This document shows, piece after piece, positions 43,782 to 63,427 of a stretch of DNA of 64,000 nucleotides. The translations under genes and the position numbers were made by a program. The notes beneath the pieces are model-generated. The model was not told where the DNA came from. It did not search any database and worked only from the letters and a program-made list of their open reading frames with translations. How positions within the stretch are numbered: position 1 is the first letter of the stretch; each line of letters starts with the position of its first letter. The DNA comes from Bacteroidota bacterium (GTDB lineage: Bacteria > Bacteroidota > Bacteroidia > Flavobacteriales > Weeksellaceae): positions 1-64,000 of the forward strand of contig JAFDZI010000031.1 of NCBI GenBank assembly GCA_018266955.1. Direction: 5' to 3'.

Positions 43782-44036
43782 ATGCTCGCAGACCAAATGA
43801 TTTCGGTAAGTGATTTAAGATACAAAACCAGATCGGTCATTGATTCTCTAAATACCTGAGCCAAATATGTTTTGCTCAATAACAAACTTGAGGCAGTAAT
43901 TCTTACACCTACAGAATATGAATATTTTAAACAGTTGCAAAAAGCAGAAGAATGGCGCTTAGATATTGAAGAGGCTAAGAAAAACAGTCCTGTGTATAAT
44001 AATGCAGAAGATTTATTGTCTGAACTTTTAGCCTAA
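43782..44036 (+). CDS. Phd/YefM-type antitoxin with one in-frame UGA (Gly)
   Basis: An 84-residue antitoxin if the TGA at 43857-43859 is read as an amino acid. N terminus MISVSDLRYKTRSVIDSLNT, then UGA, then AKYVLLNNKLEAVILTPTEY. In Phd antitoxins the equivalent position is normally glycine (LxxGxxVxLxxN). The reading frame is otherwise intact up to TAA, and the downstream toxin begins with the very next base, so the pair is organised as a working module. Start could be 43782 or 43797. In a standard-code host it would be cut off after 25 residues. Confidence 0.7.
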
Positions 44037-44300
44037 ATGAAATTTCAAAGGACTTCCAAGTTCAAAAGACAGTTTAAAAAATATCATAATCAGCCAAAGG
44101 TTTTGGAAAAATTTTCAGAATGTATCTCCCAATTATTATCTTGAAACCTTTCTCCCAAACGAAAAAATCATAAACTTCAATGAGCTTTTAAAGATTTTCG
44201 GGAACTTCATCTCGCTCCAGATATCCTACTGATCTATTATATAGAAGGTGATATTTGCTTTTTATCACAAATCGGAAGTCATTCTGATTTGTTTGGATAA
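44037..44300 (+). CDS. YafQ/RelE-type toxin with two in-frame UGA (Gly)
   Basis: An 87-residue mRNA interferase-type toxin if two TGAs are decoded (44142-44144 and 44181-44183). The second gives HKLQ-Gly-AFKDF, exactly where YafQ proteins have the conserved Gly of the DHxLxG motif. The family signature continues with ELHLAPDILLIY and IGSHSDLF. CGA at 44160 falls in the S-P-K-x-K-N-H segment, where the family has an aromatic residue, consistent with Trp; CGG at 44199 follows F in DFxELH, where Arg or Trp are both plausible. Directly after the antitoxin stop. Confidence 0.72.
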
Positions 44301-44330
44301 AACCTATGAATTTATGTATATCGAAAAATA

Positions 44331-45092
44331 TCAATCATAATAGGTAATCTTCCTTATACTTTTCGAATATTTTTTTCCGTTTTTGAATACCATTTTCTGT
44401 ATCCAATTTCCAGATGAGTCATAGAAATATTCGTAGGTAAATTCGTTCTCTGATTTTTTTAGACCATTCGAGAAAAATTCGATGGTAGTGTTATCGTTAA
44501 GTTCTGTTTGTGTTAGTATGCTTCCATTTTCATAGTAAGTATAGGTAAATTCATACTTTTTGCTTATTTCTCCTTTTTTATAGTTGGTTTGCGAAATAAC
44601 GTTTCCATGGTCGTCATATACAAATTCTGTTACTCGACTTTCTCCGTTCTTTTCTCCGAAATATTTTATAAGAAGATCATCTTTCAGAACAGCTGTAAAA
44701 GATTTGTTGGACTTCTTTCCATCATCCGTAATATCTGTGCTTATAAAAACTGAATCGTTACTGTATCTGAATGTCATTATGCTTTCGGTAACGAGTCTGT
44801 TTTTATCAAAATTCCGAAACCATACTTTCTCCTGCCTATCCTGTGAATCATACGAAAATGCTGTGCTAGATTTTCTGTCTGCACTAATTTCTTCTTTCTT
44901 CAAAATTTTCCCTTTCAGACTGAATTCCAATATTGTGGTTTCTCTATTTTTTTTCTTTTTGGCAACGTAGTTTTCCTCAATTAATTTTACCCTTCCCTGC
45001 AAAAGAAAATCTTTCCAATTCTCGGGTTGATTGAGTTGAGCTTGAGAAAAAGCAAAGAATATTAGAAAAGAGACAGTGAAAAATAATCTCAT
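44331..45092 (-). CDS. Secreted YD-repeat-like protein
   Basis: A 253-residue protein with signal peptide (cleavage near FSQA, residue 18) and repeated Y-D-x-x-G-N/D motifs (FSYDSQDRQEK, FVYDDHGNVISQ, YFYDSSGNWIQK), the pattern of RHS/YD beta-repeats. Single small repeat protein, not a full toxin. Last gene of a short minus-strand group; ends in TGA. Confidence 0.65.
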   Translation of the reverse strand: MRLFFTVSFLIFFAFSQAQLNQPENWKDFLLQGRVKLIEENYVAKKKKNRETTILEFSLKGKILKKEEISADRKSSTAFSYDSQDRQEKVWFRNFDKNRLVTESIMTFRYSNDSVFISTDITDDGKKSNKSFTAVLKDDLLIKYFGEKNGESRVTEFVYDDHGNVISQTNYKKGEISKKYEFTYTYYENGSILTQTELNDNTTIEFFSNGLKKSENEFTYEYFYDSSGNWIQKMVFKNGKKYSKSIRKITYYD

Positions 45093-45103
45093 AGATGGAG
45101 TTT

Positions 45104-47197: not shown

Positions 47198-47578
47198 ATG
47201 ATATTGGGAAATAAAGTAAAAAGGATTAGAGAACTAAAAAATTATTCGCAAAAGTACTTGGCAGATAGAATGGATATTAGTCAGGCTGCTTATAGTAAGT
47301 TGGAGAGTGGGGAAACTAAAATTTCTGATGAAAAGCTCTCTCAGATAGCAGAAATTCTGGAGGTGAAACCTGAAGACATAAGAGAATTTGACAGCCAAAA
47401 ATATTTTAATAGTTTTAACAATGTGACGGGTGATAAAAATGGAAGCTTCATTATTGAGATTGAAGATACTGAACTGATCAAAAAACTTTATGAAGACAAA
47501 ATCACTTTATTAGAAGAGTTAATGAGTCAACAGAAAAAAGAACTTGAAAAATACAGATCAAAATATGGAGAGCTTTAA
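47198..47578 (+). CDS. XRE-family transcriptional regulator
   Basis: A 126-residue regulator. The N-terminal helix-turn-helix (about 8-62; KVKRIRELKNYSQKYLADRM ... YSKLESGETKIS) is followed by a C-terminal coiled coil (LYEDKITLLEELMSQQ). Convergent with acpS (5-base gap). Probably autoregulates through the palindrome upstream. Confidence 0.85.
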   Translation: MILGNKVKRIRELKNYSQKYLADRMDISQAAYSKLESGETKISDEKLSQIAEILEVKPEDIREFDSQKYFNSFNNVTGDKNGSFIIEIEDTELIKKLYEDKITLLEELMSQQKKELEKYRSKYGEL

Positions 47579-47583: not shown

Positions 47584-47979
47584 CTAAAGAGGCTTTATAC
47601 TTAACTCGCTCTCAGCAACTACATATGCCATACTGAAATTTAAGCTATGTGTGATGGTTATATGCCAAAAGTTAATTCCTAATTTTTCAGAAATCTTTAA
47701 AACATTACCTTGCAGTTGTGCGTATGGTTTACCACTTTCAGATTGTAAAATCTGAACATCGGACAAAGCAATCCCATCTTCCATTCCTGTTCCTAGACAT
47801 TTAAGAATTGCTTCTTTAGCTGCAAATCTCCCACAAAGGAATTTTATTGAATTTGACCATGAGTAAATTTCTAATTCTTTTTTTGAAAAAATTTTTTTTT
47901 GAACAGCGGAGTTTGAATCCCATTTTAATTTTTGTGCCTCTTGATGCTCAACAATATCACACCCTATCCCTATAATCAT
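47584..47979 (-). CDS. acpS: Holo-acyl-carrier-protein synthase
   Basis: A 131-residue phosphopantetheinyl transferase: GIGCDIVEHQEA at the N terminus, RFAAKEAILKCLGTG in the centre (Mg and CoA binding) and ITHSLNFSMAYVVAE at the end, all AcpS signatures. It is the last gene of an operon whose first gene encodes an acyl-carrier-like protein, so it probably arms that protein rather than serving fatty-acid synthesis in general. TAATG overlap with the upstream gene. Ends in TAG. Confidence 0.88.
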   Translation of the reverse strand: MIIGIGCDIVEHQEAQKLKWDSNSAVQKKIFSKKELEIYSWSNSIKFLCGRFAAKEAILKCLGTGMEDGIALSDVQILQSESGKPYAQLQGNVLKISEKLGINFWHITITHSLNFSMAYVVAESELSIKPL

Positions 47980-48569
47980 TAGTTTAAAGAATATCTTATT
48001 TCTCTATTAATTGCATTAAAATGAACAATTCCTCCATTGTTTTTTGTAAGCAGTCTAAAAATTTCATACGCTTTCAAAATAGCAAATTCCCATTCTTTTG
48101 TTGTTCTAATTTTAACCTCGAAATTCTCGGTCATCTCTTTTATAATTCTCAGCGTCGTTCTAGAAACATTAGAAGTATTTGCAAAGAATTTTTTTCTCTT
48201 CGCCTCATTAAAAATAACCATTGAAACAGCTTCTTCAGTAATGATAGCTCTTGCTCCATCTTCAATTCTATCCAACAATTCATTGCTTTTTCTTTTTCTT
48301 TTCATCATGGCTCTTGCACACGGTGACCAACCTAAAAGTGTTGCAAAGGTATAATGAAAAATATCATGATAACGATAAAAATCATTTATATAAGAGTTAT
48401 CGTTAATCACATCTCCAAGTTGTCTTTCATTGTTGAGAACAACTCTTAATTCATTTTTTACATCATTTCCAACTTCAGTAAAAGATAAAGAGAATTCCCT
48501 TGGAAATTGTTCTTGTGGCATAAATCCTTCATCAAAGAATTGCGTGGAATTAATTTTATTTTGTATCAT
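47979..48569 (-). CDS. MazG-like nucleotide pyrophosphohydrolase
   Basis: A 196-residue all-helical protein. The segment FTEVGNDVKNELRVVLNNER (about 30) and INDFYRYHDIFHYTFATLLG (about 62) look like the acidic helices of the MazG/all-alpha NTP pyrophosphohydrolase superfamily. Would remove pyrophosphate from a (possibly modified) nucleoside triphosphate. Overlaps the gene upstream by 14 bases. Confidence 0.55.
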   Translation of the reverse strand: MIQNKINSTQFFDEGFMPQEQFPREFSLSFTEVGNDVKNELRVVLNNERQLGDVINDNSYINDFYRYHDIFHYTFATLLGWSPCARAMMKRKRKSNELLDRIEDGARAIITEEAVSMVIFNEAKRKKFFANTSNVSRTTLRIIKEMTENFEVKIRTTKEWEFAILKAYEIFRLLTKNNGGIVHFNAINREIRYSLN

Positions 48570-49341
48570 TTTGTTTGGTGTTTTCTTTTAAAATAGTATT
48601 AACTCTTTCTGTAACAATGCTATCTATATTAGATTTTTTAATAATACTGTCAACAGATTTTTCAATTCTTTTTTCTTTCAAACCAGCATAATATCCATCA
48701 TTGAATTTGGATGAATCAGTAAATAATTTTAGGAACATCGCAATACCTAAAGTCATAAGTATTCCCAAAGCCCAAAAAACATTTTTCAGATGAGACTCAT
48801 TTGTTTTTATTCTTTCAAGCAAAACATTTGGAGAAGCAAGTTTTCCACTTAAAGCACTTATGTTGTCAGCAGAAATTTCCATTTGACCTTTATGCTTTCC
48901 ATTGTAAGGATCAGAAGAACTTGTTAAGTTACTAAACCAAATCATAAAATATGGGCTTCCTTTATCCAAGATAATCGTAGCAGGGCCTGCATTGTAAACT
49001 GAGAAAATAATTTTTCCTTTGAATCCAGGATCAACATGAAATCCGGAAACATTAATTAGTCCTTTTATCTTTTGACTGAATTTTATAGAAATAAAAGCAA
49101 TTATATTATCTGGTATTGTTACAAACTCATCTGTAATCAAAAGAGCAAATTGTCCTGGTTTTATTACTACTTGAGTATTTTTCTCATCTAATACTTCTTT
49201 TTTTCCTTTTTTAGAATCTGTTAGATATGCTTCGCCACCTAATGATAATTCATAAGCAACATTGTTTATTCTTTTTGAATCGAATTTGTCAATACAATTT
49301 GGAAGAATAGTTTCTAGTTCTCTTGTTCCTAAGTATGCCAT
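48556..49341 (-). CDS. dCTP deaminase/dUTPase-fold protein with membrane anchor
   Basis: A 261-residue protein. Residues ~1-150 resemble dCTP deaminase (VAYELSLG, PGQFALLITDEFVTIP, INVSGFHVDPGFKGKI), but the catalytic R-S-S segment is replaced by SIKFSQKIKG, so standard deaminase activity is doubtful. A helix at about 189-208 (FWALGILMTLGIAMFLKLF) anchors it in the membrane, and a charged coiled tail follows. The anchor is unusual. In the same operon as thymidylate-synthase-like and MazG-like genes. Confidence 0.65.
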   Translation of the reverse strand: MAYLGTRELETILPNCIDKFDSKRINNVAYELSLGGEAYLTDSKKGKKEVLDEKNTQVVIKPGQFALLITDEFVTIPDNIIAFISIKFSQKIKGLINVSGFHVDPGFKGKIIFSVYNAGPATIILDKGSPYFMIWFSNLTSSSDPYNGKHKGQMEISADNISALSGKLASPNVLLERIKTNESHLKNVFWALGILMTLGIAMFLKLFTDSSKFNDGYYAGLKEKRIEKSVDSIIKKSNIDSIVTERVNTILKENTKQNDTK

Positions 49342-49387
49342 ATTTCAGTATATCAGTTTGTTAATGACGTTATAAAATTACAATTTT

Positions 49388-50434
49388 TTATTTATTGAAT
49401 GTAGTTGTTAATAATTCCTTACCAGTGATAATTCTATCATTAATACCCCATTTCGGCGGAAACCAGTAATTGATGGGTTTTGCGTTAGTTTTGTACACTT
49501 GTTTTATTCTCACTCTATCACTCGTTCCCTTAATTTCAGGATGCATTACTCTTGCATATTTATCAGTTTCACAAAAAAGATTTTGACAATCAATAAGCTG
49601 TAGTCTTCTGCCCCAAAGATTTTTAAAAGATAATCCAAGTCTTTCAAATTCTTTTTCTTGCCTATCTGTCATTAATTTAATAATTTCCACATTACTAAGA
49701 CCAGCGGTATCACTAAAACATTTACTAATGCCACCAATAGCACCTGGTCCCGGAACTACAAATTCTGATTCTGAAAAATCTATAATTGTTGAATAATTAA
49801 TATCGATTAACAACTGGTAAGCCAAAAAATCCCCTAGTCCGGGAAAGCTTTTGATGAGTTCAAATGCTTGCTGCATCTTTTTGGCTTCCATAAGTCTTTC
49901 AACGGTATTGTTTTCCAATATATATTCAATCAGTTTTAAATGATTTGAATGTTTTCGGATATGACCAAAACGAGACTTGCAAGATGGCATTATATAAGCT
50001 GCAGAATATATAGTTTTTTTATTTGTAAGAACCTTATTTAATATTTTGTCGTAAAGTTTAAAATCAAAATCTTCATATACGAGGTGACCTAGTTCAGAGG
50101 TCAGTAATTCCCATGTTTCTATTTTATTAAATAATTTAAAAAGTAATATTCTAAAAAGAATCTCTTTTGGTTCGGAAGGTAGATCATCATTATAAATTAC
50201 ATTTCTTATAAGATATTGGCTAACTCTATCCGCAGCACGATAGGTATTTGTAAATTTATATTTACTTATGACAGGATCTTTAGTCCAAGGGAATTCTTTA
50301 CCATTGATTCTATTAAAGAACGTTTCTTGTCTCAATACCGCAAATTTCCAATAACTATCATAAACTTCTGTTACTTTTGCAGGTGCTAAAGGCTTATATA
50401 TTGTAAAACCAGATGTTTTTTTATCCTTGTTCAT
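49388..50434 (-). CDS. Thymine-hypermodification-like enzyme (HMUDK/aGPT-PPlase family)
   Basis: A 348-residue protein with a helix-hairpin-helix centre (IKSFPGLGDFLAYQLLIDIN, about 196-215) and conserved VVPGPGAIGGISKCF. It resembles the helical family annotated as 5-hydroxymethyl-dU DNA kinase helical domain or alpha-glutamyl/putrescinyl-thymine pyrophosphorylase, known from phage thymine hypermodification. I infer the family from memory of its motifs; the location beside a thymidylate-synthase-like gene supports it. Overlaps that gene by 14 bases. Confidence 0.55.
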   Translation of the reverse strand: MNKDKKTSGFTIYKPLAPAKVTEVYDSYWKFAVLRQETFFNRINGKEFPWTKDPVISKYKFTNTYRAADRVSQYLIRNVIYNDDLPSEPKEILFRILLFKLFNKIETWELLTSELGHLVYEDFDFKLYDKILNKVLTNKKTIYSAAYIMPSCKSRFGHIRKHSNHLKLIEYILENNTVERLMEAKKMQQAFELIKSFPGLGDFLAYQLLIDINYSTIIDFSESEFVVPGPGAIGGISKCFSDTAGLSNVEIIKLMTDRQEKEFERLGLSFKNLWGRRLQLIDCQNLFCETDKYARVMHPEIKGTSDRVRIKQVYKTNAKPINYWFPPKWGINDRIITGKELLTTTFNK

Positions 50435-51179
50435 TTCCTTCGTCTGGTTTTAATTTATTTAATAATCTTTTAGCTTCTGTTTTGGTGATTTCCAATTGTT
50501 CTACACCTATAAAACAGTTAAATCGTTCGAGCTCCAATCCACTTTCCCTTGCGATGAATTTACCCAGATTAATTAACCCGAGCCAGTTTCCATAAGCTTT
50601 TTGATATAAATACTGTACAGCATAAAAGCTATTAATTATTAAACCACCAGATTCTGATTTATAAAAAGTCACATGCTGTAAACACGGAAATCCTTGAAAC
50701 ATTTTATTGGTATGATCTCTTAAAGGGTCAAAAGTGGAGGCTTGCAATTTTGACCTTCTTTTTATAGTCGAATTTTGCAGAGAAGAAATAATAATTTCAA
50801 GTTGGTTCACTTGATGAGACTCTCCATAAGATATCAATCTTTCAAAGTAAGTGCCTTTAGCATTTCTTGTATCTAATTTTTTGATTCTTTTTGAACTGCC
50901 AATATAAGATTTATACAATTTTTTACGATCATAATCAAAATATTCATAAAGAGAGTTAGGAAAAATTGTTTCGGAAACAGTTTCAATAGAATTAAAATTA
51001 TTTCTTTTTAGATTAAGATTCAATTCATTTTTAATAATTTTATTTTCGGTAAAATCGGTAAGTGTTAATATTAAAGGGGAGATTTCTTTTCCAGAATAAT
51101 CTACTACCTTCTCAAAAATTTCGAGCCAAGCTGTTGATAAGTTTAAATTATCTCCTTGTATTAAAGTGGGAATATTCAT
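50421..51179 (-). CDS. Thymidylate-synthase-like (nucleotide hydroxymethylase-like) enzyme
   Basis: A 252-residue protein of TS fold. The catalytic Cys lies in GFPCLQHVTFY (about 164-174). The following SFYAVQYLYQKAYGNWLGLI corresponds to the TS substrate-binding RSxDxxxGxxxN region, though the Arg-Ser-x-Asp is altered. That divergence is typical of phage/bacterial dUMP or dCMP hydroxymethylases and other base-modifying TS homologues rather than housekeeping ThyA. Second of the nucleotide enzymes in the operon. Confidence 0.72.
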   Translation of the reverse strand: MNIPTLIQGDNLNLSTAWLEIFEKVVDYSGKEISPLILTLTDFTENKIIKNELNLNLKRNNFNSIETVSETIFPNSLYEYFDYDRKKLYKSYIGSSKRIKKLDTRNAKGTYFERLISYGESHQVNQLEIIISSLQNSTIKRRSKLQASTFDPLRDHTNKMFQGFPCLQHVTFYKSESGGLIINSFYAVQYLYQKAYGNWLGLINLGKFIARESGLELERFNCFIGVEQLEITKTEAKRLLNKLKPDEGNEQG

Positions 51180-52871: not shown

Positions 52872-53723
52872 TTAGTACATATTTACTTTCTCCCCGTCAA
52901 ACAGCCACCAATCCTCAAAAACATTTTGTTTAATCTCCTCTAAAGATTTAAATAAGAAGTGAAATTTCGCTTCTGTAAAACGTTCGTCTTCAAGAAGTCT
53001 CTTCATCGCCATTTGCTTATACACCTCGAGTTCGAAGATACAGAGAATACGGCTTCCATAATCTAGCCCAAACATTCTGCTCGGTTGCCCTACTGACAAT
53101 GCCCTCAAATGATGAAATAAAGACTTATGAACACGACTTGTATCATCTCCGTTATACATTTCAATGGCATACAACTCTTTTCTATTCGGTGTTTGAAGCA
53201 TACAAAGTGCATCAGCAATCAAATAATCGTTTTCAGAGATTTGAATGAACGATTCCGCTTTGTAACCCTTCTTCTTTCCCGTAGAAACCTTATCAAAATA
53301 GGTCAAGAATAGTAGCATTTCACAATCATCAATTTTAGAAATTCCTTTGTGTAAAGCGATTTGCACATTAATCGTGTTCATTCTATGGAAGTAATCCTTT
53401 TGATAAAATTGACCTTCATTTTTCGGAAACCTGACAACCTCTTCTCTCAAATAATCTTTAACAATTTCAGCACCATGAGCTTTTAAAAAATGTACATTTT
53501 CGAGTTTCCCTATTGCAGGATGAACTCCGAATGCAATAGAACCCACTAACGGATCTTTCCGAAGTCTGAGTTCTGCAATTTGCTTGTTGAGATTCGCTCT
53601 GTCAGACATAATTCCGAGACCGAGCAACTGCCCTGCTGTTAAATATTTGTAACGAGCCAAAGCTAAAAGGATTTTTTCCTGTGAGGGAGAAAGTGTTTGA
53701 AAGAATAATCTTTTAGTAACCAT
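52872..53723 (-). CDS. Replication-relaxation family protein
   Basis: A 283-residue protein with an N-terminal winged helix (QEKILLALARYKYLTAGQLL) and a C-terminal domain with IADALCML and ELYAIEMYNGDD, resembling the D...ExD/E pattern of plasmid replication-relaxation/mobilisation proteins. Lies next to the TraG-like ATPase on the same strand, fitting a mobilisation or replication role. Confidence 0.7.
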   Translation of the reverse strand: MVTKRLFFQTLSPSQEKILLALARYKYLTAGQLLGLGIMSDRANLNKQIAELRLRKDPLVGSIAFGVHPAIGKLENVHFLKAHGAEIVKDYLREEVVRFPKNEGQFYQKDYFHRMNTINVQIALHKGISKIDDCEMLLFLTYFDKVSTGKKKGYKAESFIQISENDYLIADALCMLQTPNRKELYAIEMYNGDDTSRVHKSLFHHLRALSVGQPSRMFGLDYGSRILCIFELEVYKQMAMKRLLEDERFTEAKFHFLFKSLEEIKQNVFEDWWLFDGEKVNMY

Positions 53724-53788: not shown

Positions 53789-55699
53789 TTAGAGATGAAA
53801 CTTAGGCTTAATACTTCCGCTGGACTCTGTGGAATTTTGAGGTACGGATTCAGAATTTTCTTTTGCTGGAAGAATTGTAGCTTCGGAATCCGATGCCGGA
53901 TTTACAGTTTCATTAGTTGTATCTGCTGAAGTCGATTTGGCTTTTGAAGGAATCAAAGTTGGCGCATGAACTGGATTTGATGTAGGTTCATGCGGCGGAT
54001 TCTGACTTTTATTTTGAAACTGCGTTTGTGTTTGAATTGGATTTACATTGATGATGTCTCTGTAAATTTCCGATTCAGACAACAAATAGGCTTTTAGTTT
54101 TTTCAGTTCTTCTTTGTTACAAAAGTATCTTTTCTGCTGTCTAATTAGAAAATCGGGACTTTTAATTTTTATGGCCGGAAAATGATCGTACTTTAAGTAG
54201 AACTCATAAGGTAACAAACTCTGCATTGCTGAATAAGAAACTCCAAAATCCCCTGCCAATTCTTTAAGTGCAGGCAAGCCGTTGATTCCTGCTAATTTAA
54301 CAGCTGAGTTATTCAAAACTGAATTCTTTAATGATAATGGGATTTGACCGACACTTTGTGTTCCAACAATCAAACGCAATTTGTACTTCCTGGCCTCAGA
54401 AAATATGGTTTGAATACTTCCGCTTTCTGTCGTGAAATTGTGAAATTCATCGATAAACAGATAACAGGGCTTTCTTGAATGTTCGGATTCGAACGCCCTC
54501 TGAAATACAATGCTCAGAATGGTTGCGGAAACAAATCTCCCGAGTGCTCTGCTCGTATCTTCTCCCAATTTTCCTTTGGATAAATTAAACAGGATTATCC
54601 TGCCTTCCTGCATTCCTTTCTTTAGGTCGATATTGCTTTTTCCGTTCATCATGTGGTAGAACATCATATTGTTTTGGAGGTGTTGCAATCTTGTATAGAT
54701 TGCCAGTTTGGTAGGAGCATATTTTTTACTAAGGAATGCTGTTTCAAAAAACTGGCGGTAGACCTGAAATGAAGATTTTTTGCCCAATTCCACCCATTTT
54801 GCATTTTGGGTGTCATCCATAAATATTTGCAAGTCGGATAGCCCACATCCTCCTCTTTCAAGCAAAACTGCTAAACACGGTTTCAGCAGCGCTTCCATTT
54901 GAAGCGACATTCCTGCTTCGGGAATTAATTCCGAAAACGCTTTGGCGAATTGCTGGGACATCACATCAATTAAAAACGGCTCGGAGACTCTCCGCCAAAA
55001 TGGGTTGATGCAGGGAATTTTTTCATTTTCCAATTGCGGATCGATGTACCAAACACGGTCGGGCTTTTGAAGATTGATACGGAATCCTAATAAGCTCTCG
55101 GATAGGTCTCCATGAGGATCCAAAAGAATTATTGAGTGTTGCTGTTTCAATTGGGATTGATGCTGAATTTGGTAAGCAATCGCTTTCATAAATTCCGTCT
55201 TTCCGGAACCTGTCCTGCCGCTAATAAAGCAATGCCTGTCTAAAGCGGAAACGGGAAATGGGACAGGCTTTGGAGCAAAAAATAATGCGTGTAGCGAAGG
55301 TAGACAAAGTGAAAGAAGTTTTTGATAGTCGTGTTCATCATCGCTGGTAAAAGAAGATAAAATTTTCGGGTGTTTCAATAAAAGATTCCAATATTCCAAA
55401 GCAGGCGAAACGCATACTGCCCTCTCCAATTTTTCTTTGCTTGTCGCTTTCTTGGTTCTCATTTCTTCAAATTTCTTGAAGGTCAGAAATCGTTTTTGAA
55501 GTTCTTTGCGGTAATGAATTGAATTTCTATCCAGTCGGGAGAGGTTTTTATCGATTGCTTTTATTCGTTCTGAAATTAAAGCATCCCGACCCGAAGGATG
55601 TCCGGCAAGTAAATAACTTCCTGCAAGTAGATAAGGTTCTTGGTTTCTGATCTTCCATAGAAAGGAAGTTTTATTCCAGAATTGAATTGTTGAATTCAT
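53789..55699 (-). CDS. TraG/VirD4-like conjugative coupling ATPase
   Basis: A 636-residue P-loop ATPase with Walker A ISGRTGSGKTEFMKA (about 160) and Walker B CYLFIDEFHNF (about 412), then GTQSVGQIP, as in DUF87/VirD4/TraG coupling proteins. The N-terminal part (about 1-140) has no obvious membrane helices; the last ~80 residues are a Pro/Ser/Thr-rich disordered tail. It probably feeds plasmid DNA to a type IV secretion channel encoded elsewhere. Standard code throughout. Confidence 0.8.
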   Translation of the reverse strand: MNSTIQFWNKTSFLWKIRNQEPYLLAGSYLLAGHPSGRDALISERIKAIDKNLSRLDRNSIHYRKELQKRFLTFKKFEEMRTKKATSKEKLERAVCVSPALEYWNLLLKHPKILSSFTSDDEHDYQKLLSLCLPSLHALFFAPKPVPFPVSALDRHCFISGRTGSGKTEFMKAIAYQIQHQSQLKQQHSIILLDPHGDLSESLLGFRINLQKPDRVWYIDPQLENEKIPCINPFWRRVSEPFLIDVMSQQFAKAFSELIPEAGMSLQMEALLKPCLAVLLERGGCGLSDLQIFMDDTQNAKWVELGKKSSFQVYRQFFETAFLSKKYAPTKLAIYTRLQHLQNNMMFYHMMNGKSNIDLKKGMQEGRIILFNLSKGKLGEDTSRALGRFVSATILSIVFQRAFESEHSRKPCYLFIDEFHNFTTESGSIQTIFSEARKYKLRLIVGTQSVGQIPLSLKNSVLNNSAVKLAGINGLPALKELAGDFGVSYSAMQSLLPYEFYLKYDHFPAIKIKSPDFLIRQQKRYFCNKEELKKLKAYLLSESEIYRDIINVNPIQTQTQFQNKSQNPPHEPTSNPVHAPTLIPSKAKSTSADTTNETVNPASDSEATILPAKENSESVPQNSTESSGSIKPKFHL

Positions 55700-56742: not shown

Positions 56743-56976
56743 ATGGAAAACAAAATCAACAAAACCGTCAATCTAGACTTGACGACTATCGACAGTAACA
56801 TCTTCGCCATTTTTGGAGCGTTCTCCAGACAGGCAAGACGTGAGAAGTGGACGCAACAAGAAATTGATGCCGTCCTCGAAGAAGCCAAAAGCGGAGATTA
56901 TGATCATGCGATTGCTACCATCTGCGAGTATTGTGACCCTGAAGACGATTCTAACTCTGAAAACGAAGAAGACTAA
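56743..56976 (+). CDS. Small plasmid protein, function unknown
   Basis: A 77-residue acidic protein (FAIFGAFSRQARREKWTQQE near the middle, ending in a Glu/Asp tail). Its TAA overlaps the ATG of the next gene (TAATG). It begins a compact plus-strand run of small genes. Confidence 0.7.
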   Translation: MENKINKTVNLDLTTIDSNIFAIFGAFSRQARREKWTQQEIDAVLEEAKSGDYDHAIATICEYCDPEDDSNSENEED

Positions 56977-57581
56977 TGGGAACAAGAAATTTAACCGTGG
57001 TGGTACAAAACCAAGAAGTGAAAGTTGCTCAATATGGGCAGTATGACGGATTCCCCGATTCCCTTGGAGTAAAATTATTAAAATTCTTTAGCAATCCTGA
57101 GAACACCGAAAAATTAAAAGAAATCCTTCCGAAAGTACGTCTTTGGAATGAAAAAGACCAAAAGCTACAGGACGAATTTCTGGAATCAATCGGTTGTACC
57201 AACGGAATACTCAACGACAAGCAAAAGGAACAATTCAAAATGAAGTATCCTTTTCGCTATCGTGAACGCTACGGAAAATTAACCGAAGGGCAAATCTTGG
57301 AAATATTGCTGGAGTTTCATCATCTTGATGAAATCGCAACCATCGATGCTTACGATTTTGCTTCCGACAGTCTGTTCTGTGAATGGGCGTATGTGATTGA
57401 CTACGATAAAAATGCTTTTGAAGTGTACAAAGGTCTCAACACCTCGGGAATTTCAGAAGAAGACCGCTTCTTTCCGCTTTATGACGGAGAAAACGATTAT
57501 TATCCTGTCAAAATCATTGCCTCATTTCCTTTGGATCAACTTCCCGATGAAAACGAATTTCTTTTTCAATGCTCAACGTAG
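56976..57581 (+). CDS. Conserved mobile-element protein (MGTRNLT family)
   Basis: A 201-residue protein starting MGTRNLTVVVQNQEVKVAQY. Proteins with this opening and a following QYDGFPDSLG are widespread on phages and plasmids, without known function. Arg is encoded only by CGT/CGC here. Ends in TAG. Confidence 0.75.
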   Translation: MGTRNLTVVVQNQEVKVAQYGQYDGFPDSLGVKLLKFFSNPENTEKLKEILPKVRLWNEKDQKLQDEFLESIGCTNGILNDKQKEQFKMKYPFRYRERYGKLTEGQILEILLEFHHLDEIATIDAYDFASDSLFCEWAYVIDYDKNAFEVYKGLNTSGISEEDRFFPLYDGENDYYPVKIIASFPLDQLPDENEFLFQCST

Positions 57582-57660: not shown

Positions 57661-58245
57661 ATGAACAAAAACAAAAACCGCCTACTGGTAATGTGCTTTA
57701 TGAAAATGCTTCAGCAAAGAATCGAAAGAGACAAAGTGGAAACCCTAAGTCCTATATTCGGTAACATCTTAAGTAAAGAAGAGCTTCAAAACATTTTGAA
57801 GTGGCTGTACTTGGATAAAGTGCCTGAACACTACGATTTGAAAACGATGGACAGTCAGGATTTGCTTGAAGCCATCGGAGATGACATTCATATCCTTTCG
57901 TATTCCATAGAAAAATGGAAAAAGGAACTGGAAGAGAAAATCACGCCACAGAAAGTCTATGAGGTACTTTGCCAGCTCCAACTCGAAACCCATTATCTGA
58001 TGACCAAAATTTTGGCAGATTGGGACGAGTACGACCACAGCAACTTCAAGGCACTCTGCCGAAAGGCGGGAACTCCTCAACCCTTATTTGCTGTATTTGA
58101 ATCTTCTGTACTAGAAGAGGACAAATATATTTCTGTTCCTCTTTCTAAATATTATGCTACCGAGTGGGAAGCAACATCTAAAAAATCACTTCTCATTTCG
58201 GAAGAACAGTTTGAGGAACATCAGCTCCAGATCCTAAGCCTGTAA
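57661..58245 (+). CDS. Plasmid protein A of a paralogous pair
   Basis: A 194-residue soluble protein. Residues ~35-90 (KEELQNILKWLYLDKVPEHY ... LLEAIGDDIHILSYSIEKW) match residues of the protein encoded at 59477 (KELIEII ... LLQLIGDDFKIISYVMSRW), so the two are paralogues. Unknown function. Confidence 0.7.
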   Translation: MNKNKNRLLVMCFMKMLQQRIERDKVETLSPIFGNILSKEELQNILKWLYLDKVPEHYDLKTMDSQDLLEAIGDDIHILSYSIEKWKKELEEKITPQKVYEVLCQLQLETHYLMTKILADWDEYDHSNFKALCRKAGTPQPLFAVFESSVLEEDKYISVPLSKYYATEWEATSKKSLLISEEQFEEHQLQILSL

Positions 58246-58275
58246 TCTTTTATCCAATTATTTTATAAAACAAAA

Positions 58276-58710
58276 ATGAAACAATCAATCTTAGAATTTT
58301 ATTCTAATCTGGACAAAGCCAGAGACAGAGCTTTATGGCTGGAGTTTGAGTACAGAAATATTCCCAAGCATTTTATGGTATTTGATGGGCCTGAAAACAA
58401 TTTCGCCGTTGCCGATTTAGAAACGGCAGAAGAAATGGAAATGACGCATCATTACTACTCTCTTCCTGAAAATTATCAACATCTTTCTTACGGAGATTTG
58501 AAAGGAATTTCGGGCGACCCAGAGATGTTAGGACACTGGGAAAATATCCTTGGAAAGTTCTCGGTAATGGAAGGCGAATTACTTCGCTTTATCCTGAAAT
58601 ATCAGGTTCCTCTAGATAAAATTATTCGTTACGAACTTGGGTGTAGAGGATTTGACCATAACAATCAATGGATTGGATTTAATGAATCTGAAAAACTATG
58701 GCAACAATAA
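58276..58710 (+). CDS. Uncharacterised plasmid protein
   Basis: A 144-residue acidic protein containing MVFDGPENNFAVADLETAEE and a C-terminal CRGFDHNNQWIGF. Small acidic plasmid proteins near a leading region are often anti-restriction proteins, but I cannot show that here. Confidence 0.65.
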   Translation: MKQSILEFYSNLDKARDRALWLEFEYRNIPKHFMVFDGPENNFAVADLETAEEMEMTHHYYSLPENYQHLSYGDLKGISGDPEMLGHWENILGKFSVMEGELLRFILKYQVPLDKIIRYELGCRGFDHNNQWIGFNESEKLWQQ

Positions 58711-58715
58711 ATAGT

Positions 58716-58943
58716 ATGGATACAGAAAACAATAAGACAACTCTGGAGGAAGTCTATGTGATTGCTCTTGCCGAAAATGACGGGGAATTTGATTGGGTTT
58801 ATATTCTTCCAAAACCCTATTATCTTACCGAAACAGAAGCCTTGGAAATCAGAAATTCATTAATCGAAAATGAAGAATTTATTACCGAAAGTAACTGTAT
58901 CGTAAAAAAACTATACAGAGTAAAACCCATACAAGAAGAATAA
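58716..58943 (+). CDS. Small plasmid protein B1 (paralogue of 59171 gene)
   Basis: A 75-residue protein; ATG at 58716, five bases after the previous stop, is preferred over the ATG at 58698, which would overlap. The P-K-P-Y-Y-L-T ... E-I-R-N-S-L-I-E-N pattern recurs as P-K-P-F-Y-Q-T ... N-I-R-R-T-L-I-E-N in the gene at 59171. Confidence 0.65.
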   Translation: MDTENNKTTLEEVYVIALAENDGEFDWVYILPKPYYLTETEALEIRNSLIENEEFITESNCIVKKLYRVKPIQEE

Positions 58944-58961
58944 GAAACAATCAAAAACAAA

Positions 58962-59174
58962 ATGGAAAACAAAAAATGGGTAAAGCAAGTGATGATTATT
59001 GATGATAAACTGCATCAAAGCTATCTGCAAACTTTTGTGGAAGAACCATTGAACTTTGAGGAGTTCGTCAATTTTGAATTGGGAAACCTCTTTGATGAAG
59101 ACAGGAAGATTGAACAGATTATCCCGAATGAAAATGCCACTCAATTTGTCATCATTTATTCTATAAAGCTATGA
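58962..59174 (+). CDS. Small plasmid protein, function unknown
   Basis: A 70-residue acidic protein. It ends in TGA TGA TAA; under UGA=Gly it would gain only two glycines. Its stop overlaps the ATG at 59171 (ATGA). Confidence 0.6.
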   Translation: MENKKWVKQVMIIDDKLHQSYLQTFVEEPLNFEEFVNFELGNLFDEDRKIEQIIPNENATQFVIIYSIKL

Positions 59175-59392
59175 TGATAAAAGGAAACTATGTGTTTATT
59201 TATGTTCACTTTGTCATTCTCCAAAAGGCTCCTCAATTGGGAATGGATTACATTGTATGTCATCCCAAACCTTTTTATCAGACCTATAGAATGGCAAGAA
59301 ACATCAGAAGAACACTCATTGAAAACGGAAGTCTTTCCGAAGAAAACTCAAAAATTGGTGGATTTCAAATCCTTGCGATTAACCTTAATTGA
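59171..59392 (+). CDS. Small plasmid protein B2 (paralogue of 58716 gene)
   Basis: A 73-residue protein similar to the gene at 58716 over its central 45 residues. It ends in TGA at about the same length as its paralogue, so UGA is probably a real stop here. Confidence 0.6.
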   Translation: MMIKGNYVFIYVHFVILQKAPQLGMDYIVCHPKPFYQTYRMARNIRRTLIENGSLSEENSKIGGFQILAINLN

Positions 59393-59476
59393 ATTGCGTT
59401 AAGCCTTAAGCAATAGGCTTTAAGCTCTATTGTCTAATATCTAACCTCTTAAGTCTAACCTCTAATATCTAAATTT

Positions 59477-60079
59477 ATGAACGAAAACAGAACGGCACTC
59501 TTGAAAATATTCTCAGCAGTGCTAAAGGACAGAGTAAAATCTGAACCTCAGTATCAATCCATCAGTACGGAAATGGTCAAACATTTTTCCCGAAAAGAAT
59601 TGATTGAAATCATTACCCACAACTTCGAGGGCGAAGTTCCATCGGAATTTAACCTCGTGGAAATGGAAAATAATGAACTTTTGCAATTGATTGGAGATGA
59701 TTTCAAAATCATTTCTTATGTGATGAGCCGTTGGAGCAAGGAAGTTTCACTACTTCCAACCCTCCAAGAATGGATGCATTCTAAAGTTCATTCATCTCCT
59801 GAAAAGGAAATAGAAGAAAACTTGGAATCAAATTCATCAGAAACTTCATCAGAAAATTTGGAGAATCCTCCAACAAATGAAATGATTTCTGAACATCCAG
59901 ATTCTACTTCTGAAAATTCTGATAAAACCAATTCGGAATCTCCTAAACCTTCGGATGTATCATCTGAAGTTAAAAAATTTGAAGAGAAACTGAATTTCAA
60001 TCCTGATTCTAAACCTGCTTCAGAAAAACCGCATTTCGGTAGGAAGCAGGAGGACAAGAAAACTGAAAAAAGCAAGTAA
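59477..60079 (+). CDS. Plasmid protein A2 with acidic Ser/Pro-rich tail
   Basis: A 200-residue protein. The N-terminal ~95 residues are paralogous to the protein at 57661; the C-terminal half is disordered, rich in Ser, Glu and Pro (ENLESNSSETSSENLENPP) and ends in a Lys-rich patch. Uses CGA for Arg at a position where its paralogue has Glu/Lys, consistent with the standard code. Preceded by the flavobacterial-style intergenic phrase tctaacctctaatatctaaa. Confidence 0.68.
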   Translation: MNENRTALLKIFSAVLKDRVKSEPQYQSISTEMVKHFSRKELIEIITHNFEGEVPSEFNLVEMENNELLQLIGDDFKIISYVMSRWSKEVSLLPTLQEWMHSKVHSSPEKEIEENLESNSSETSSENLENPPTNEMISEHPDSTSENSDKTNSESPKPSDVSSEVKKFEEKLNFNPDSKPASEKPHFGRKQEDKKTEKSK

Positions 60080-60134
60080 CGCCTTTGGTATTCAAAGGCT
60101 GGGAATGGTTTCCGTTCCAACAATGAACTCATGG

Positions 60135-60168
60135 AAATAGCCCAAGTTTTTTACTCGGGCTATTTTAT
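60135..60168 (+). terminator. Rho-independent terminator
   Basis: AAATAGCCC (60135-60143) pairs with GGGCTATTT (60157-60165), followed by T-rich sequence. It separates the standard-code genes from the recoded methylase. Confidence 0.8.
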
Positions 60169-60289
60169 TTTCTTAAGCAACACTCCCCTGCAATAGATAC
60201 ATTTACTTTATTTACAAAAAGTGAAAATGAGCCATTCCTCTGAAAATAAAATAATTACCAAAAACAAAACTCCCCTGCTCAAAGCAAAA

Positions 60290-61081
60290 ATGAAAACCCC
60301 GATTACGTATTACGGTGGGAAACAGAATTTAGTAAAAGAACTTCTTTGATTAATTCCTCCTCATAAAATCTATGTAGAACCTTATTTTTGAGGCGGAGCA
60401 CTGTTTCGGGCTAAAGAGCCTTCTTCTTCTGAAATTATCAATGACACCAACATGAATGTGGTTAATTTCTACGAAGTTTTGAAGAAAAACTACAAAGCAC
60501 TGCACGAAAAAATCGAAGCCACTCTTCACAGTAGGGAAACTTACAAAAAAGCGCTTTTCATTTACGAAACTCCCCGGCTTTTTGCGGACAATCCTGTAAT
60601 AAGAGCACGAGCTTTCTATGTATCCTGCAATCAATGATTTTGCAGTCGTGTTGGGAGTTGGTGATATGATAAGGGAAAAAGATGTGCTTCGGTTTTTCAG
60701 AATAAAATAGAAAACTTTAAAGAAGAAATGAGCATTCGTCTTTCTTACACGCAAATCGAACAAAACTCGGCTCATCTTGTCATTCAGTCGAGGGATCATG
60801 AACATGCCTTCTTTTACTGTGATCCTCCTTATATCGGGACGAATCAATGACATTATGGAGGTTATTACGAAGACGATTTCATCAGAGACCTCACGGTATT
60901 ATCACAAATCAAGTGAAAGTTTTTATTGAGCAATTTTCCATCTAAAATACTCGATAGGTTTGTAAAGGAGCATCAATGGTATGTAAAAACCTTTGACCAA
61001 CCTTTGTCAGCCTCTCACAACAGCAAGAAGAACTTAAACAAAAGAAAAACGGAAGTGTTGGTGGCGAATTATCCGATATAA
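60290..61081 (+). CDS. DNA adenine methylase (Dam type), UGA read as Gly
   Basis: A 263-residue D12-class methylase if six in-frame UGAs are decoded (60347, 60389, 60635, 60662, 60848, 60914). Motif I is TYYGGKQNLV, the catalytic motif CDPPYIG. The UGAs fall in KELL-G-LIPPH, EPYF-G-GGALF, CNQ-G-FCS, GSW-G-YDK, TNQ-G-HYGGY and QIK-G-KFLL; at least five of these are strongly conserved glycines. CGG at 60407 and 60575 and CGA at 60608 occur where relatives have Trp (VFWAKEP, PWLF, RAWAF). No other frame disruption and a TAA stop. An ATG at 60227 would add 21 residues. Confidence 0.85.
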
Positions 61082-61092
61082 TACCCCAACAG

Positions 61093-61153
61093 AGCCCCCA
61101 AACCCCCAAAGGGGGCTTATTGAATATTTTCCCCTTTTGGGGGACAGGGGGCT
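61093..61153. repeat. Long imperfect palindrome (AGCCCCC...GGGGGCT)
   Basis: AGCCCCCAAACCCCCAAAGG and a complementary arm ending CCCTTTTGGGGGACAGGGGGCT-like, separated by a short AT-rich loop. Palindromes of this wording are common between genes in Flavobacteriia and usually act as terminators. Here it lies between two recoded genes. Confidence 0.75.
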
Positions 61154-61177
61154 TTTACATTAAAAAACAAAAATGAA

Positions 61178-61324
61178 ATGAACACCTCAAAACCAAAATA
61201 CAACAATCAAAGAAAAAATGTCGTGATGCGTAAGATCAAACCAAGAATGAAACAGAGAGTTTTCAAAAACGAAGAAATCCCCATCCATAAAATCAGAAAA
61301 GATTACGAAAAATTTAAAGTATGA
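61178..61324 (+). CDS. Small basic protein
   Basis: A 48-residue Lys/Arg-rich protein (RKNVVMRKIKPRMKQRVF) with stop TGA at 61322 sharing bases with an ATG at 61321 (ATGA). If UGA were Gly it would continue for 13 codons to TAA. The ATG at 61173 is in another frame and would run through UGAs into the methylase downstream; I consider that reading less likely. Confidence 0.5.
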   Translation: MNTSKPKYNNQRKNVVMRKIKPRMKQRVFKNEEIPIHKIRKDYEKFKV

Positions 61325-62345
61325 CCGAAGCTTAAAGCATGATTACCCTCCTCCAAATAATCTAAAAGTATTCTGAGCCTTTGTTGGTGGTGGCGGTTCT
61401 ACAATGGGATACAAACTCGCAGGATTTCAACATTTGGGTGGTGTAGAAATAGATGGCAGAATGGCAAAAATTTACCAAACCAACCATTCCCCTGAACATT
61501 TTTATCATGAAGACATCAGAGATTTTAACCAAAGAACTGATTTACCAAAAGAACTCTACGAATTAGATATTTTGGATGGCTCTCCTCCTTGCAGTGCCTT
61601 CTCGATGTCCTGAAAACGTGAGGAATACCGGGGAAGAGAAAAAGTATTTAAAGAATGACAGAAAAAACAAATTTTGGATGAACTTGTGTTTATATTCTGT
61701 GATATGGTAGAAAAGCTTATGCCCAAAGTTGTTGTAATGGAAAATGTTCCGGGACTCGTTGCCGGAAGAGCAAAAAAATATGCCATTGAAGTCTATGAGA
61801 GACTTAATTTGCTATGATATCAAGTCCAAATCTTCAGACTCAATTCAGCTACAATGGGTGTTCCCCAAGCTCGTGAACGTATTTTCTTTATTGCAAGAAA
61901 AAAGAGCTTGGAGCTCCCCCAATTAATTTTGGACTTCAATGAATCCCCTGTATATTTTGGAACAATTGCCGACAGAAATTCTACCACCCATCCTCCGCTC
62001 CGACCTTCCATTGAAAAAAGACGACCGTTTGTAGAATACGGAGATCAGAATTTAAAGTTTGCCGATGCAAAATACAGAAATTTAAATACCTTCAATGCGT
62101 TCTTCAGTACCTATATTTTGTACGATGATATTGTTGCTCCTACATTGACTTCAAGTGGAGCATGAGTATATTACCCCGAAAAACGCAATCTTAATGATAC
62201 CGAATATATTCGTATGAGTAGTTTTCCAAACGATTTTGATTTTTGCAACATATCAACCCGTTATGTTTGCGGAATGAGCGTTCCTCCATTGATGACCGCT
62301 AGAATTGCAAATGAAATAAGAAAACAATGGTTTTCAATAATTTAG
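61321..62345 (+). CDS. DNA cytosine methylase (Dcm type), UGA read as Gly, frameshifted start
   Basis: A C5-methylase of ~340 residues if five UGAs are decoded (61374, 61611, 61656, 61815, 62163). Motif I is FVGGGGSTMGYKLAGF, PC motif DGSPPCSAFSMS, ENV motif VVMENVPGLV, then GVPQARERIFFI. UGAs give KVF-G-AF, SMS-G-KRE, FKE-G-QKK, NLL-G-YQV and SGA-G-VYY; SMSGKRE and FKEGQ are conserved glycines. CGG at 61629 lies in EEY-x-G, where Trp is typical. ATG at 61321 opens MTEA, but one base is missing near 61333 to reach the conserved frame. Ends in TAG. Confidence 0.75.
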
Positions 62346-62905
62346 CAATCTGAAATGTACCAATGTTTAATTGAAATACATATTCAAAAAATTGTTAAAC
62401 TGTTACATTATTCGATTGTTACATTAATTCATACTCCTCTCCTCTACAACATTAACAAGGCTTTTCACAGCCTTTATAAAGATTACATTCACCGAAAAAT
62501 AAGATAAATAATTGTTTTTCTGAAACAATCAACAAGGTGGTTGTCAAAGGTTGATACACTCCTCTGCCAAACCTTAACAAGGCATTGTCAAAGTCTGCCA
62601 CAACTTTATCAATCCCATGACAAACCTTCTACAATGAATGTCAAGGCATTGTTAAAGTAAATCACTTGAAAAAGCCTTTTCGATGCTTATAAATCCGTAA
62701 GGAATTAAAAAGGGATGTTATAACCTTTAACAATCCCCTGACAAATGTTTGAAGAAGTTTTGTAAAACCTATGACAAAGATTTAATCATCTATTGTCAAA
62801 CGTAGAGCAAAGTAACTAAAAACAAGCATTCAATTGATTGTATTCTGTATGATAACCAAAAGTTATCGTGAAAAAAGCGAGTATTTATCCTATAAAAATA
62901 ATTCT
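62346..62905. repeat. Cluster of TTGTCAAA / TTTGACAA-type repeats (centromere-like)
   Basis: A 560-base gene-free stretch with at least eight copies of a TTGTCAAA-like word in both orientations, for example TTGTCAAAG near 62541 and 62586, TTGTTAAAG near 62650, TTGTCAAAC near 62793, and TGACAAA near 62618, 62739 and 62772; several extend to CAAGGCATTGTCAAAG. It directly precedes the HTH protein gene. The pattern suggests a partition (parS-like) or operator region for that protein. Confidence 0.65.
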
Positions 62906-63427
62906 ATGGAAATTTCAAAATCAGAGGCAGAAAGACTGCTGGGTGTAAGTTCCACCACCTTGTATAATCGGGCAAACAAAATGAATATCAAATTCATCAA
63001 TAAAGTAGACTCCAAAGGAAAGAGCAGTTACCTTGCCCAATCCGATTTGGAGAAAATGGCAGAAGCAATGGGTAAGACATTGAAAACCGAATCCGCCCCT
63101 GAAAAAGAAAATCCGAAAACGGAAAGCAGAGGAGCAGAGGAGTGAGAAGCCCAAGAATTTGTACAGGAAAAATTTATGCTTCAACTCAAAATCAAGGAAC
63201 AGGAAGAGGAGATCAAGTCCAACAACCAAATCATTGAATTTTATAAAGAAAATAATTCGCAATTGCTGATGAACCAACAGGAAGCTAAAAATCAAATCAC
63301 TACTATGTACTGAGAAATGCTTGGAATTTCGAAAAAAGCCACGACCTACTATATTATCTCTATTGCCGTATCGGTTGTGTTACTCCTGTTTGTTGTTCTT
63401 GTTGCCACAGGAAACCTGAAATTTTAA
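62906..63427 (+). CDS. HTH, coiled-coil, membrane-tail protein (Par-like), UGA read as Gly
   Basis: A 173-residue protein if UGAs at 63143 and 63311 are decoded. N-terminal HTH (ISKSEAERLLGVSSTTLYN, about 3-60), central coiled coil (LQLKIKEQEEEIKSNNQ) and a C-terminal membrane helix (YYIISIAVSVVLLLFVVLVA). The layout recalls the single-protein plasmid partition protein Par of staphylococcal pSK1 (HTH plus coiled coil). UGAs fall at AEE-G-EAQEF and TMY-G-EMLG. CGG near 62968 (LYN-x-ANK) could be Trp or Arg. ATG at 62906 begins the HTH; other in-frame starts lie upstream. Confidence 0.65.

Follow-up and report, generated by a model that had tools for sequence, protein, structure and literature searches.

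Gene content of the locus

The stretch of DNA analysed (the window, 64 kb of a 91-kb contig of a Weeksellaceae genome) carries genes that contain in-frame TGA codons (recoded genes) beside genes that contain none (the TGA-free set). Coordinates are collected in Table 1. The recoded set of the window comprises two DNA methylases and a helix-turn-helix (HTH) protein, with a toxin-antitoxin pair nearby. Both methylases match Pfam families (D12/Dam: E 6.8e-25; C5: E 9.1e-44). No other ORF on the contig reaches 280 aa and carries 6 or more TGA, and in 200 Markov resamples of positions 58001-64000 the count of such ORFs was 0. In agreement with the original prediction, which had been made from the window's letters, the neighbouring 636-, 1127- and 708-aa ORFs have 0 internal TGA, TGA serves as a stop nearby (it ends 7 of the contig's 61 ORFs of 150 aa or more), and a palindrome is present near 61093.

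Table 1. Features of the window (positions counted from its first nucleotide)
Feature	Position	Strand	Remarks
Phd/YefM-like antitoxin	43782..44036	+	1 in-frame TGA; Pfam 21.8 bits (cut-off 29.8)
YafQ-type toxin	44037..44300	+	2 in-frame TGA; Pfam 84.9 bits (cut-off 30)
XRE-like regulator	47198..47578	+	adjoins the element in the window genome, G083, G147 and G471
283-aa protein paired with coupling ATPase	52872..53723	-	0 TGA
Coupling ATPase (TrwB/TraG/HerA-like)	53789..55699	-	0 TGA
77-aa protein	56743..56976	+	0 TGA; conserved in G147 and G083
201-aa protein	56976..57581	+	0 TGA; 86-88% identity to G147 and G083 copies
194-aa protein	57661..58245	+	0 TGA
144-aa protein	58276..58710	+	0 TGA
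81-aa protein (p81)	58698..58943	+	0 TGA
70-aa protein	58962..59174	+	terminates at TGA (TGA-TGA-TAA)
200-aa protein	59477..60079	+	0 TGA; its CGA is opposite CGT (Arg) in sister copies
Dam-type (D12) adenine methylase	60221..61081	+	6 TGA, 3 CGA/CGG; start tentative
C5 cytosine methylase	61173..62345	+	8 TGA, 4 CGA/CGG; start tentative
Short direct-repeat cluster	62448..62778	+	between C5 methylase and HTH gene
197-aa HTH protein, hydrophobic C-terminal stretch	62834..63427	+	2 TGA; HTH_17 below cut-off
Four imperfect 15-nt repeats	63788..63937	+	upstream of Rep3 initiator gene

The antitoxin and toxin genes are adjacent (43782-44300) and were assigned to the Phd/YafQ type from sequence, their activity being predicted; in genome G083 the antitoxin homologue has a TGA at the matching place and the toxin homologue likewise has 2. 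The roles originally proposed for the recoded genes are retained for the methylases and the toxin-antitoxin pair (with the antitoxin below the Pfam cut-off), and the partition function proposed for 62834-63427 is not.

Which genes are recoded varies from copy to copy of the element. The coupling ATPase (a hallmark of mobilizable elements that is present in this family) and its 283-aa partner are free of TGA in the window; their counterparts have 9 TGA each in G147 and G083 (ATPase) and 3-5 TGA in G083, G147 and G471 (partner). In sister copies the recoded set additionally includes these two genes and a recombinase, whose gene is absent from the window element. As to whether the partner is a relaxase, it gave 0 matches in Pfam, NCBIfam and PHROG.

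The direct-repeat cluster is a possible origin or partition site, and the 15-nt repeats appear iteron-like. A Rep3 initiator gene closest to Bacteroidota genes follows directly after the window (contig position 64055-65344), with 1 TGA and no CGA/CGG. This arrangement, an initiator gene with upstream repeats, resembles Rep3 plasmids of Bacteroidota; unlike in those plasmids, the gene lies in a chromosomal contig and is cut by one TGA. Since this TGA falls in an unconserved alignment column, the gene may be just broken rather than recoded.

Codon meanings and selection in the two gene sets

Conserved glycine was found at 5/6 TGA sites of the window Dam and at 3/7 alignable TGA sites of the C5 methylase. 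Over all recoded genes, glycine makes up 55% of the residues of standard-code homologues at TGA sites; its share is 42% at GGN sites and 2.8% at other positions. Judged from these alignments, the recoded genes read UGA as Gly, which upholds the assignment first made.

Two sense codons, which the original prediction had missed together with the sister elements and the TGA-free gene set, also depart from the standard code. In the recoded set, CGA (n = 32) stands opposite Trp of standard-code relatives at a frequency of 0.45 and opposite Arg at 0.01, and CGG (n = 23) at 0.34 and 0.00, respectively, related copies being counted separately; for the control codons, the values are 0.27 and 0.29 (AGA and AGG opposite Arg) and 0.48 (TGG opposite Trp). 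Among the flavobacterial copies, 9/9 informative CGR columns were opposite TGG by manual reading. In Dam, one CGR column is opposite AGA in the distant L222 copy. Where testable in alignments, CGA and CGG are thus read as Trp. UGA as Gly and CGA/CGG as Trp make up the Absconditabacteria code according to the accessible text of PMC8629427, CGG as Trp being predicted for some Gracilibacteria too; the recoded set shows all three codon meanings. Unlike genes of Absconditabacteria, it is found in flavobacterial chromosomes that use the standard code, next to the element's TGA-free genes.

The two sets were compared in G147 and G083, where TGA accounts for 67/203 glycine codons of the recoded genes and 0/68 of those of five TGA-free genes (Fisher p 3e-5 and 2e-5 when the genomes are taken separately). 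Between these genomes, dN/dS is 0.08-0.11 for the recoded genes under the three-codon code; of the five TGA-free genes, four have values of 0.06-0.18 and one of 0.38. On these ratios, both sets are under purifying selection. By codon content, the TGA-free set on the same backbone is standard-coded or code-neutral. The counterparts of the 70-aa protein in G147 and G083 terminate at a lone TGA (manual reading), and CGR is read as Arg in 5 columns only, 3 of which come from a G480 homologue of only 48% identity. As counter-evidence, column 59 of the window's TGA-free 283-aa gene has CGG opposite TGG in two recoded copies.

Sister elements, descent and decoding machinery

Elements of the same family were found in four other Weeksellaceae genomes (completeness 99-100, contamination 0-1), one of which is the named strain Chryseobacterium oryctis WLa1L2M3. 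These carry, in varying combinations, a UGA-laden recombinase, coupling ATPase or Dam, situated within contigs. A Dam gene with at least 6 TGA occurs in 3/395 genomes, the window genome included, and 4/320 genomes have a recombinase that carries 11 TGA or more. The C. oryctis copy is decayed, with an early TAA codon, a frameshift close to the recombinase end and a C5 gene reduced to its C-terminal piece. In G147 and G083 the recoded and TGA-free genes lie in a single block of 86% DNA identity, with dS of 0.58 (partner) and 0.78 (ATPase) for recoded genes, and of 0.37-0.76 for four TGA-free genes and 0.25 for p81. This single block and the similar dS point to a history shared in both codes. Searches of viral contigs and plasmid/phage records revealed nothing closely related to the element, the Dam and C5 relatives found there being of less than 60% identity, and such an element was not found among the literature matches listed (from a search with subscription journals mostly outside it).

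The sister-copy recombinase matches PF00239 (Resolvase; E 4e-27) and, just below the cut-off, PF13408 (zinc ribbon; E 1e-4), by which it is classed as a large serine recombinase. In the recombinase tree, the four sister copies group in a single clade (100/100), within a starred branch (100/98) that holds five rows of UGA=Gly Patescibacteria. The flavobacterial copies share lineage and code with these Patescibacteria recombinases, at 31-42% identity in 11/13 loci; the other two, both P0004 rows, give 29-30%. In 11/13 Patescibacteria loci a tRNA gene faces the recombinase 3' end, whereas this is so in none of the flavobacterial copies, where Rfam detected no tRNA remnant at the recombinase end either. 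Together with the meanings of UGA and of CGA/CGG, the recombinase tree gives strong support to the Absconditabacteria link first proposed.

For Dam, the best standard flavobacterial Dams score 294-305 bits, and the best match in the Patescibacteria class (353 genomes) scores 127 bits; by these scores, the gene descends from flavobacterial Dams. Presence in Absconditabacteria, on which the original prediction depended, was found in part: relatives of the C5 methylase and the recombinase occur in UGA=Gly genomes, and the complete element was not found there. In the 26 Patescibacteria loci, only the recombinase and Dam queries matched, with no match to the coupling ATPase, partner, C5, HTH, toxin-antitoxin or TGA-free proteins. 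The coupling ATPase was discarded as a marker of the element in the Patescibacteria class, since its superfamily is universal there (matches in 341/341 genomes) and its matches are uninformative.

As originally stated for tRNA-Gly(UCA) between 27 and 64 kb, no tRNA(UCA) was detected in the 64-kb window (ARAGORN, Rfam and a home-made cloverleaf scan) or among the tRNA matches of the window genome, all 36 of which had their anticodons read (150/196 first-look candidates scored). The four sister genomes gave 257 tRNA matches, of which 77 were read, likewise without a UCA anticodon, and the element regions contain no suppressor-tRNA cloverleaf. RF2 is present in the window genome (contig C56, 494 bits), the one genome covered by the RF2 and full tRNA-match check. 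Unlike an Absconditabacteria cell, which has tRNA-Gly(UCA) and no RF2, this genome has RF2 and no UCA tRNA was found in it. The recoded genes use the Absconditabacteria code; the cell of the window genome does not. A suppressor-tRNA pattern search in five genomes gave 108 matches against 65 in the reversed control (above control in 4/5), and none of seven matches, selected visually because a G precedes their T loop, passed the cloverleaf scan. A tRNA-Val-derived relic (L008:1148-1226) was rejected, its anticodon being UUA, not UCA, and its acceptor stem mismatched by eye, as were the tRNA arrays of G147, G471 and G083, the anticodons of which are ordinary.

A probable two-host element and the alternatives

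The element is probably mobile and bilingual, with an evolutionary history both in a flavobacterium and in an Absconditabacteria-coded cell. Among the options originally listed, a two-host element is the best fit, since conserved genes of both kinds share one backbone. The element sits in Weeksellaceae chromosomes with genes written for two genetic codes, and would have moved between a flavobacterium that uses the standard code and an Absconditabacteria-coded cell, the latter probably living as an epibiont on that flavobacterium. The epibiont would translate the recoded genes for methylation, recombination and DNA transfer; in the flavobacterium their translation would halt at the first UGA, leaving the TGA-free set as the only one made, so that the codons would act as an automatic host switch. 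Against this reading stand the failure to find a complete copy in a UGA=Gly genome (26 Patescibacteria loci), the flavobacterial descent of Dam, the changing composition of the recoded set, the few CGR columns read as Arg in the TGA-free set and the decayed C. oryctis copy; moreover, a recombinase that is untranslatable in the flavobacterium could not integrate the element there. That the code split itself is selected, as a host-specific switch restricting transfer, methylation and recombination proteins to the Absconditabacteria-coded partner, can be proposed only tentatively.

One-way transfer, an option of the original prediction that stays the main rival, is considered unlikely. Absconditabacteria-coded modules would have recombined recently into flavobacterial elements, as silent passengers that will decay; this agrees with the Patescibacteria descent of the recombinase, with the already broken C. 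oryctis copy and with the failure to find the whole element in UGA=Gly genomes (26 Patescibacteria loci). However, Dam and Rep3 are closest to Bacteroidota genes, yet Dam is in foreign code, so flavobacterial genes must also have moved the opposite way, and in G147 and G083 both gene sets form one block with similar dS.

Code-gated expression, whereby a suppressor tRNA from elsewhere would make UGA Gly at certain times in the flavobacterium, has a precedent in Bacteroidota phages in which a comparable switch relies on suppressor tRNAs (accessible parts of PMC10879173 and PMC7886860). Like the element, these phages are single replicons whose gene sets follow two codes; unlike in the phages as described there, no suppressor tRNA was found on the element, two sense codons are reassigned as well, and the second code belongs to a different phylum. 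This part of the original prediction is unsupported and very improbable, since no UCA anticodon was found in the 36 tRNA matches of the window genome or the 77 tRNAs read in the sister genomes, no cloverleaf was found in the element regions, RF2 is present in the window genome, and a UGA suppressor would not change CGA/CGG from Arg to Trp. An assembly or binning artefact joining Absconditabacteria DNA to a flavobacterial contig, for which the 59 contigs of the window genome might speak and which had been named as a refutation, can practically be dismissed given the recurrence of UGA-laden genes of the same families within contigs of four other genomes (one a named strain) and the flavobacterial-type flanks on both sides of the window element, the left one syntenic with G147.

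A two-host element also has a parallel in phages predicted to infect Gracilibacteria/Absconditabacteria and standard-code bacteria, one mobile genome being suggested for hosts of differing codes; in the available portion of that source (PMC10746230), these phages avoid in-frame TGA and are readable in both codes, whereas several genes of the element are readable in only one.

Genetic codes are usually regarded as a barrier to gene exchange. A compact element that occurs in several flavobacteria, and whose genes under selection belong to two codes with three codons of different meaning, provides a test case of gene passage across this barrier, and may offer a sequence-based route to tie uncultivated Absconditabacteria-coded bacteria to their hosts. 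If the code split is indeed selected, such elements would reveal epibiont-host pairs from genome sequence alone. As the carriers include a named Chryseobacterium strain, the translation of UGA- and CGR-containing genes can be addressed in culture.

A further bilingual element of other make-up was observed at locus L222 (contig G747:C176). Its tyrosine integrase, coupling ATPase and partner are without TGA, and its Rep3 initiator and Dam have 9 and 6 TGA, respectively, which hints at a wider class of bilingual elements.

Recoded genes and the identity of their code

The window covers positions 1-64000 of a flavobacterial contig (C24) of 91,070 bases, in the whole of which the Dam and C5 methylase genes are the only ORFs of at least 280 aa with 6 TGA or more; comparable TGA-laden ORFs were yielded by 0 of 200 Markov resamples of 58001-64000. 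The original prediction of UGA=Gly genes in a standard-code flavobacterial setting was borne out by these two genes and by the presence of RF2 in the window's genome, and its failure to see a decoding tRNA was extended to that whole genome, where none of the 36 tRNA matches has a UCA anticodon. The Rep3 initiator may be recoded or broken. A tRNA-Val-derived sequence of the same genome (contig C2, L008:1148-1226), whose anticodon is UUA and whose acceptor stem is mismatched, is probably a relic.

Features in and directly beside the window
Feature	Position	In-frame TGA	Remark
PDC-M38A/PDC-M38B pair	29540-32541		beside the element
Serine recombinase of other lineage	32729-34252		standard code
Phd/YafQ pair	43782-44300	1 and 2	same kind as recoded methylases
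Cargo cluster	47584-52665		between regulator and coupling genes
Partner (283-aa-type protein)	52872-53723 (-)	0	paired with coupling ATPase
Coupling ATPase	53789-55699 (-)		
70-aa gene	58962		terminates TGA-TGA-TAA
Dam-type methylase	60221-61081	6	
C5 methylase	61173-62345	8	
HTH protein	62834-63427	2	same kind as recoded methylases
Rep3 initiator	64055-65344	1	directly beyond window end; unconserved column

TGA sites of the Dam, C5, Rep, ATPase, partner and recombinase genes were aligned with standard-code homologues. Gly accounted for 55% at TGA sites (453 of the aligned residues), versus 42% at GGN and 2.8% elsewhere, the Rep site adding no Gly to this tally. With related copies counted apart, CGA (n=32) faces Trp in 45% and Arg in 1%, and CGG (n=23) faces Trp in 34% and Arg in 0%; among comparison codons, TGG faces Trp in 48%, and AGA and AGG face Arg in 27% and 29%. 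Between flavobacterial copies, CGA/CGG alternates with TGG in columns read by hand (Dam 160, 177, 287; ATPase 249, 261, 328; recombinase 456, 498, 513), none of which has an Arg codon opposite CGA/CGG there; in the more distant copy of L222, AGA stands opposite one Dam column. Read in this way, CGA/CGG supply three Trp in the window's Dam and four in its C5 methylase. PMC8629427 gives UGA=Gly and CGA/CGG=Trp as the predicted code of Absconditabacteria, and a predicted reading of CGG as Trp for some Gracilibacteria too. Both features of the Absconditabacteria code are matched by the recoded genes of the flavobacterial elements, and the recoding and the identity of the code are considered close to certain.

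Two gene sets in sister elements

When Dam was searched for in the order, with read-through of stops, 14 of 395 genomes matched at E<=1e-30 (16 rows). UGA-laden genes were found in the window's genome, G147 (8 TGA) and G083 (6 TGA); the G362 gene contains 1 TGA and 1 TAG, and the remaining 12 rows have no internal stop. G147 and G083 share the window's gene order, with the partner and coupling ATPase on one strand and, on the opposite strand, genes of 201, 194, 144, 81 and ~205 aa followed by Dam. In both, the partner (3-5 TGA) and the ATPase (9 TGA) are recoded. Next comes a large serine recombinase (11 or 15 TGA), a gene missing from the window element. Searched in 320 genomes of the family (E<=1e-20), this recombinase matched 11, with 11-15 TGA in four (G083, G471, G147 and G480, the last with one TAA as well); the other matches have <=27% identity and <=1 TGA. 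The copy in G480 (Chryseobacterium oryctis WLa1L2M3) is decayed: it has an early TAA and a frame shift close to the end of the recombinase, and of C5 no more than a C-terminal piece is left. The G083 element carries a second toxin-antitoxin-like pair (L064:877-1415, 2 TGA per gene). Large arrays of 11-19 tRNA genes with ordinary anticodons occur in four sister genomes (L084, L085, L086, L089), adjoined by genes which we take to be RNA-repair-like.

In G147 and G083 together, TGA makes up 67/203 Gly codons of the recoded genes and 0/68 of five TGA-free genes (the copies are related; taken singly, the two genomes give Fisher p = 3e-5 and 2e-5). All five informative CGR columns of the TGA-free set are Arg; three of them depend on a G480 homologue with just 48% identity, and the other two, in the 200/205-aa gene, on the backbones. 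Read by hand, the 70-aa gene of G147 and G083 has a single TGA as its stop. The set can thus be called standard-coded; at the least it is code-neutral. One CGG in the window's TGA-free partner, which faces TGG of two recoded copies, is hard to fit in.

Between G147 and G083, dN/dS of the recoded genes, computed under the three-codon code, was 0.114 (partner), 0.083 (ATPase), 0.103 (Dam) and 0.105 (recombinase; 0.088 between G147 and G471), and that of the TGA-free genes 0.121, 0.064, 0.076 and 0.183, with 0.378 for the 81-aa gene. Divergence was similar (dS of 0.58 for the partner, 0.78 for the ATPase and 0.25-0.76 for TGA-free genes, all within one 86%-identical block), and higher in Dam (1.54) and the recombinase (1.90). 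In these two copies neither set looks like debris: two gene sets, in two codes, are both under selection. A further bilingual case is L222 (G747:C176, 12,537 bases), on which partner, coupling ATPase and tyrosine integrase, all without TGA, adjoin Dam (6 TGA) and a Rep3 initiator (9 TGA); its host is uncertain, as its 2.7 Mb bin is of uncertain purity.

Descent of the parts and probable passage between hosts

In a tree of 44 recombinases, rooted for drawing only, the four flavobacterial copies form one clade (100/100) inside a branch (100/98) with five UGA=Gly Patescibacteria rows, and ten standard flavobacterial recombinases are placed apart. The contig of G639 reads with UGA=Gly from end to end, and RF2 was looked for in this genome and not found; in its class, the recombinase profile matched 38/353 genomes (E<=1e-15), the best 19 rows each having 6-33 TGA. 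In the nearest of these recombinases, L137, CGA/CGG likewise read as Trp (32 Trp and 2 Arg/Lys of 92 aligned residues). Dam scored 294-305 bits against the best standard flavobacterial Dams, and at best 127 bits in the Patescibacteria class (13/353 genomes matched). On these comparisons the recombinase can be assigned Patescibacteria descent and Dam flavobacterial descent. For C5, a relative with 16 TGA (44% identity, 296 bits) was found in 1/158 genomes of G639's kind, and the best plasmid match is from Bacillus altitudinis (49%, 308 bits). The coupling ATPase, matching 341/341 genomes, was rejected as an uninformative Patescibacteria marker, and element queries other than recombinase and Dam had no match in 26 Patescibacteria loci.

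A flavobacterial gene in the Absconditabacteria code must, in our reading, have evolved inside a cell using that code, and because it is now back in a flavobacterium the element would have passed through both hosts. This passage is the best explanation and a rather probable one; the main rival, one-way transfer, is rather unlikely. Type IV secretion genes of Patescibacteria, related to conjugation machinery by the authors of PMC12102498, would offer a possible route. The standard-code serine recombinase in the window, present elsewhere in G083 and G480, could integrate the element in a flavobacterium. Among the papers listed by literature searches, none was seen to describe an element of this kind.

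The pair beside the element, matching PADLOC models PDC-M38A (1000 bits) and PDC-M38B (359 bits), is a candidate anti-phage system. The cargo cluster encodes a 5-hmdU DNA kinase helical-domain protein (PF18723), a dCTP-deaminase-like protein and a MazG_C protein; four of its proteins gave no PADLOC match. In UGA=Gly Patescibacteria, the end of the large serine recombinase abuts an opposite-strand tRNA gene (Leu, Lys, Gly or His) in 11/13 loci (L167-L175, L178, L135).
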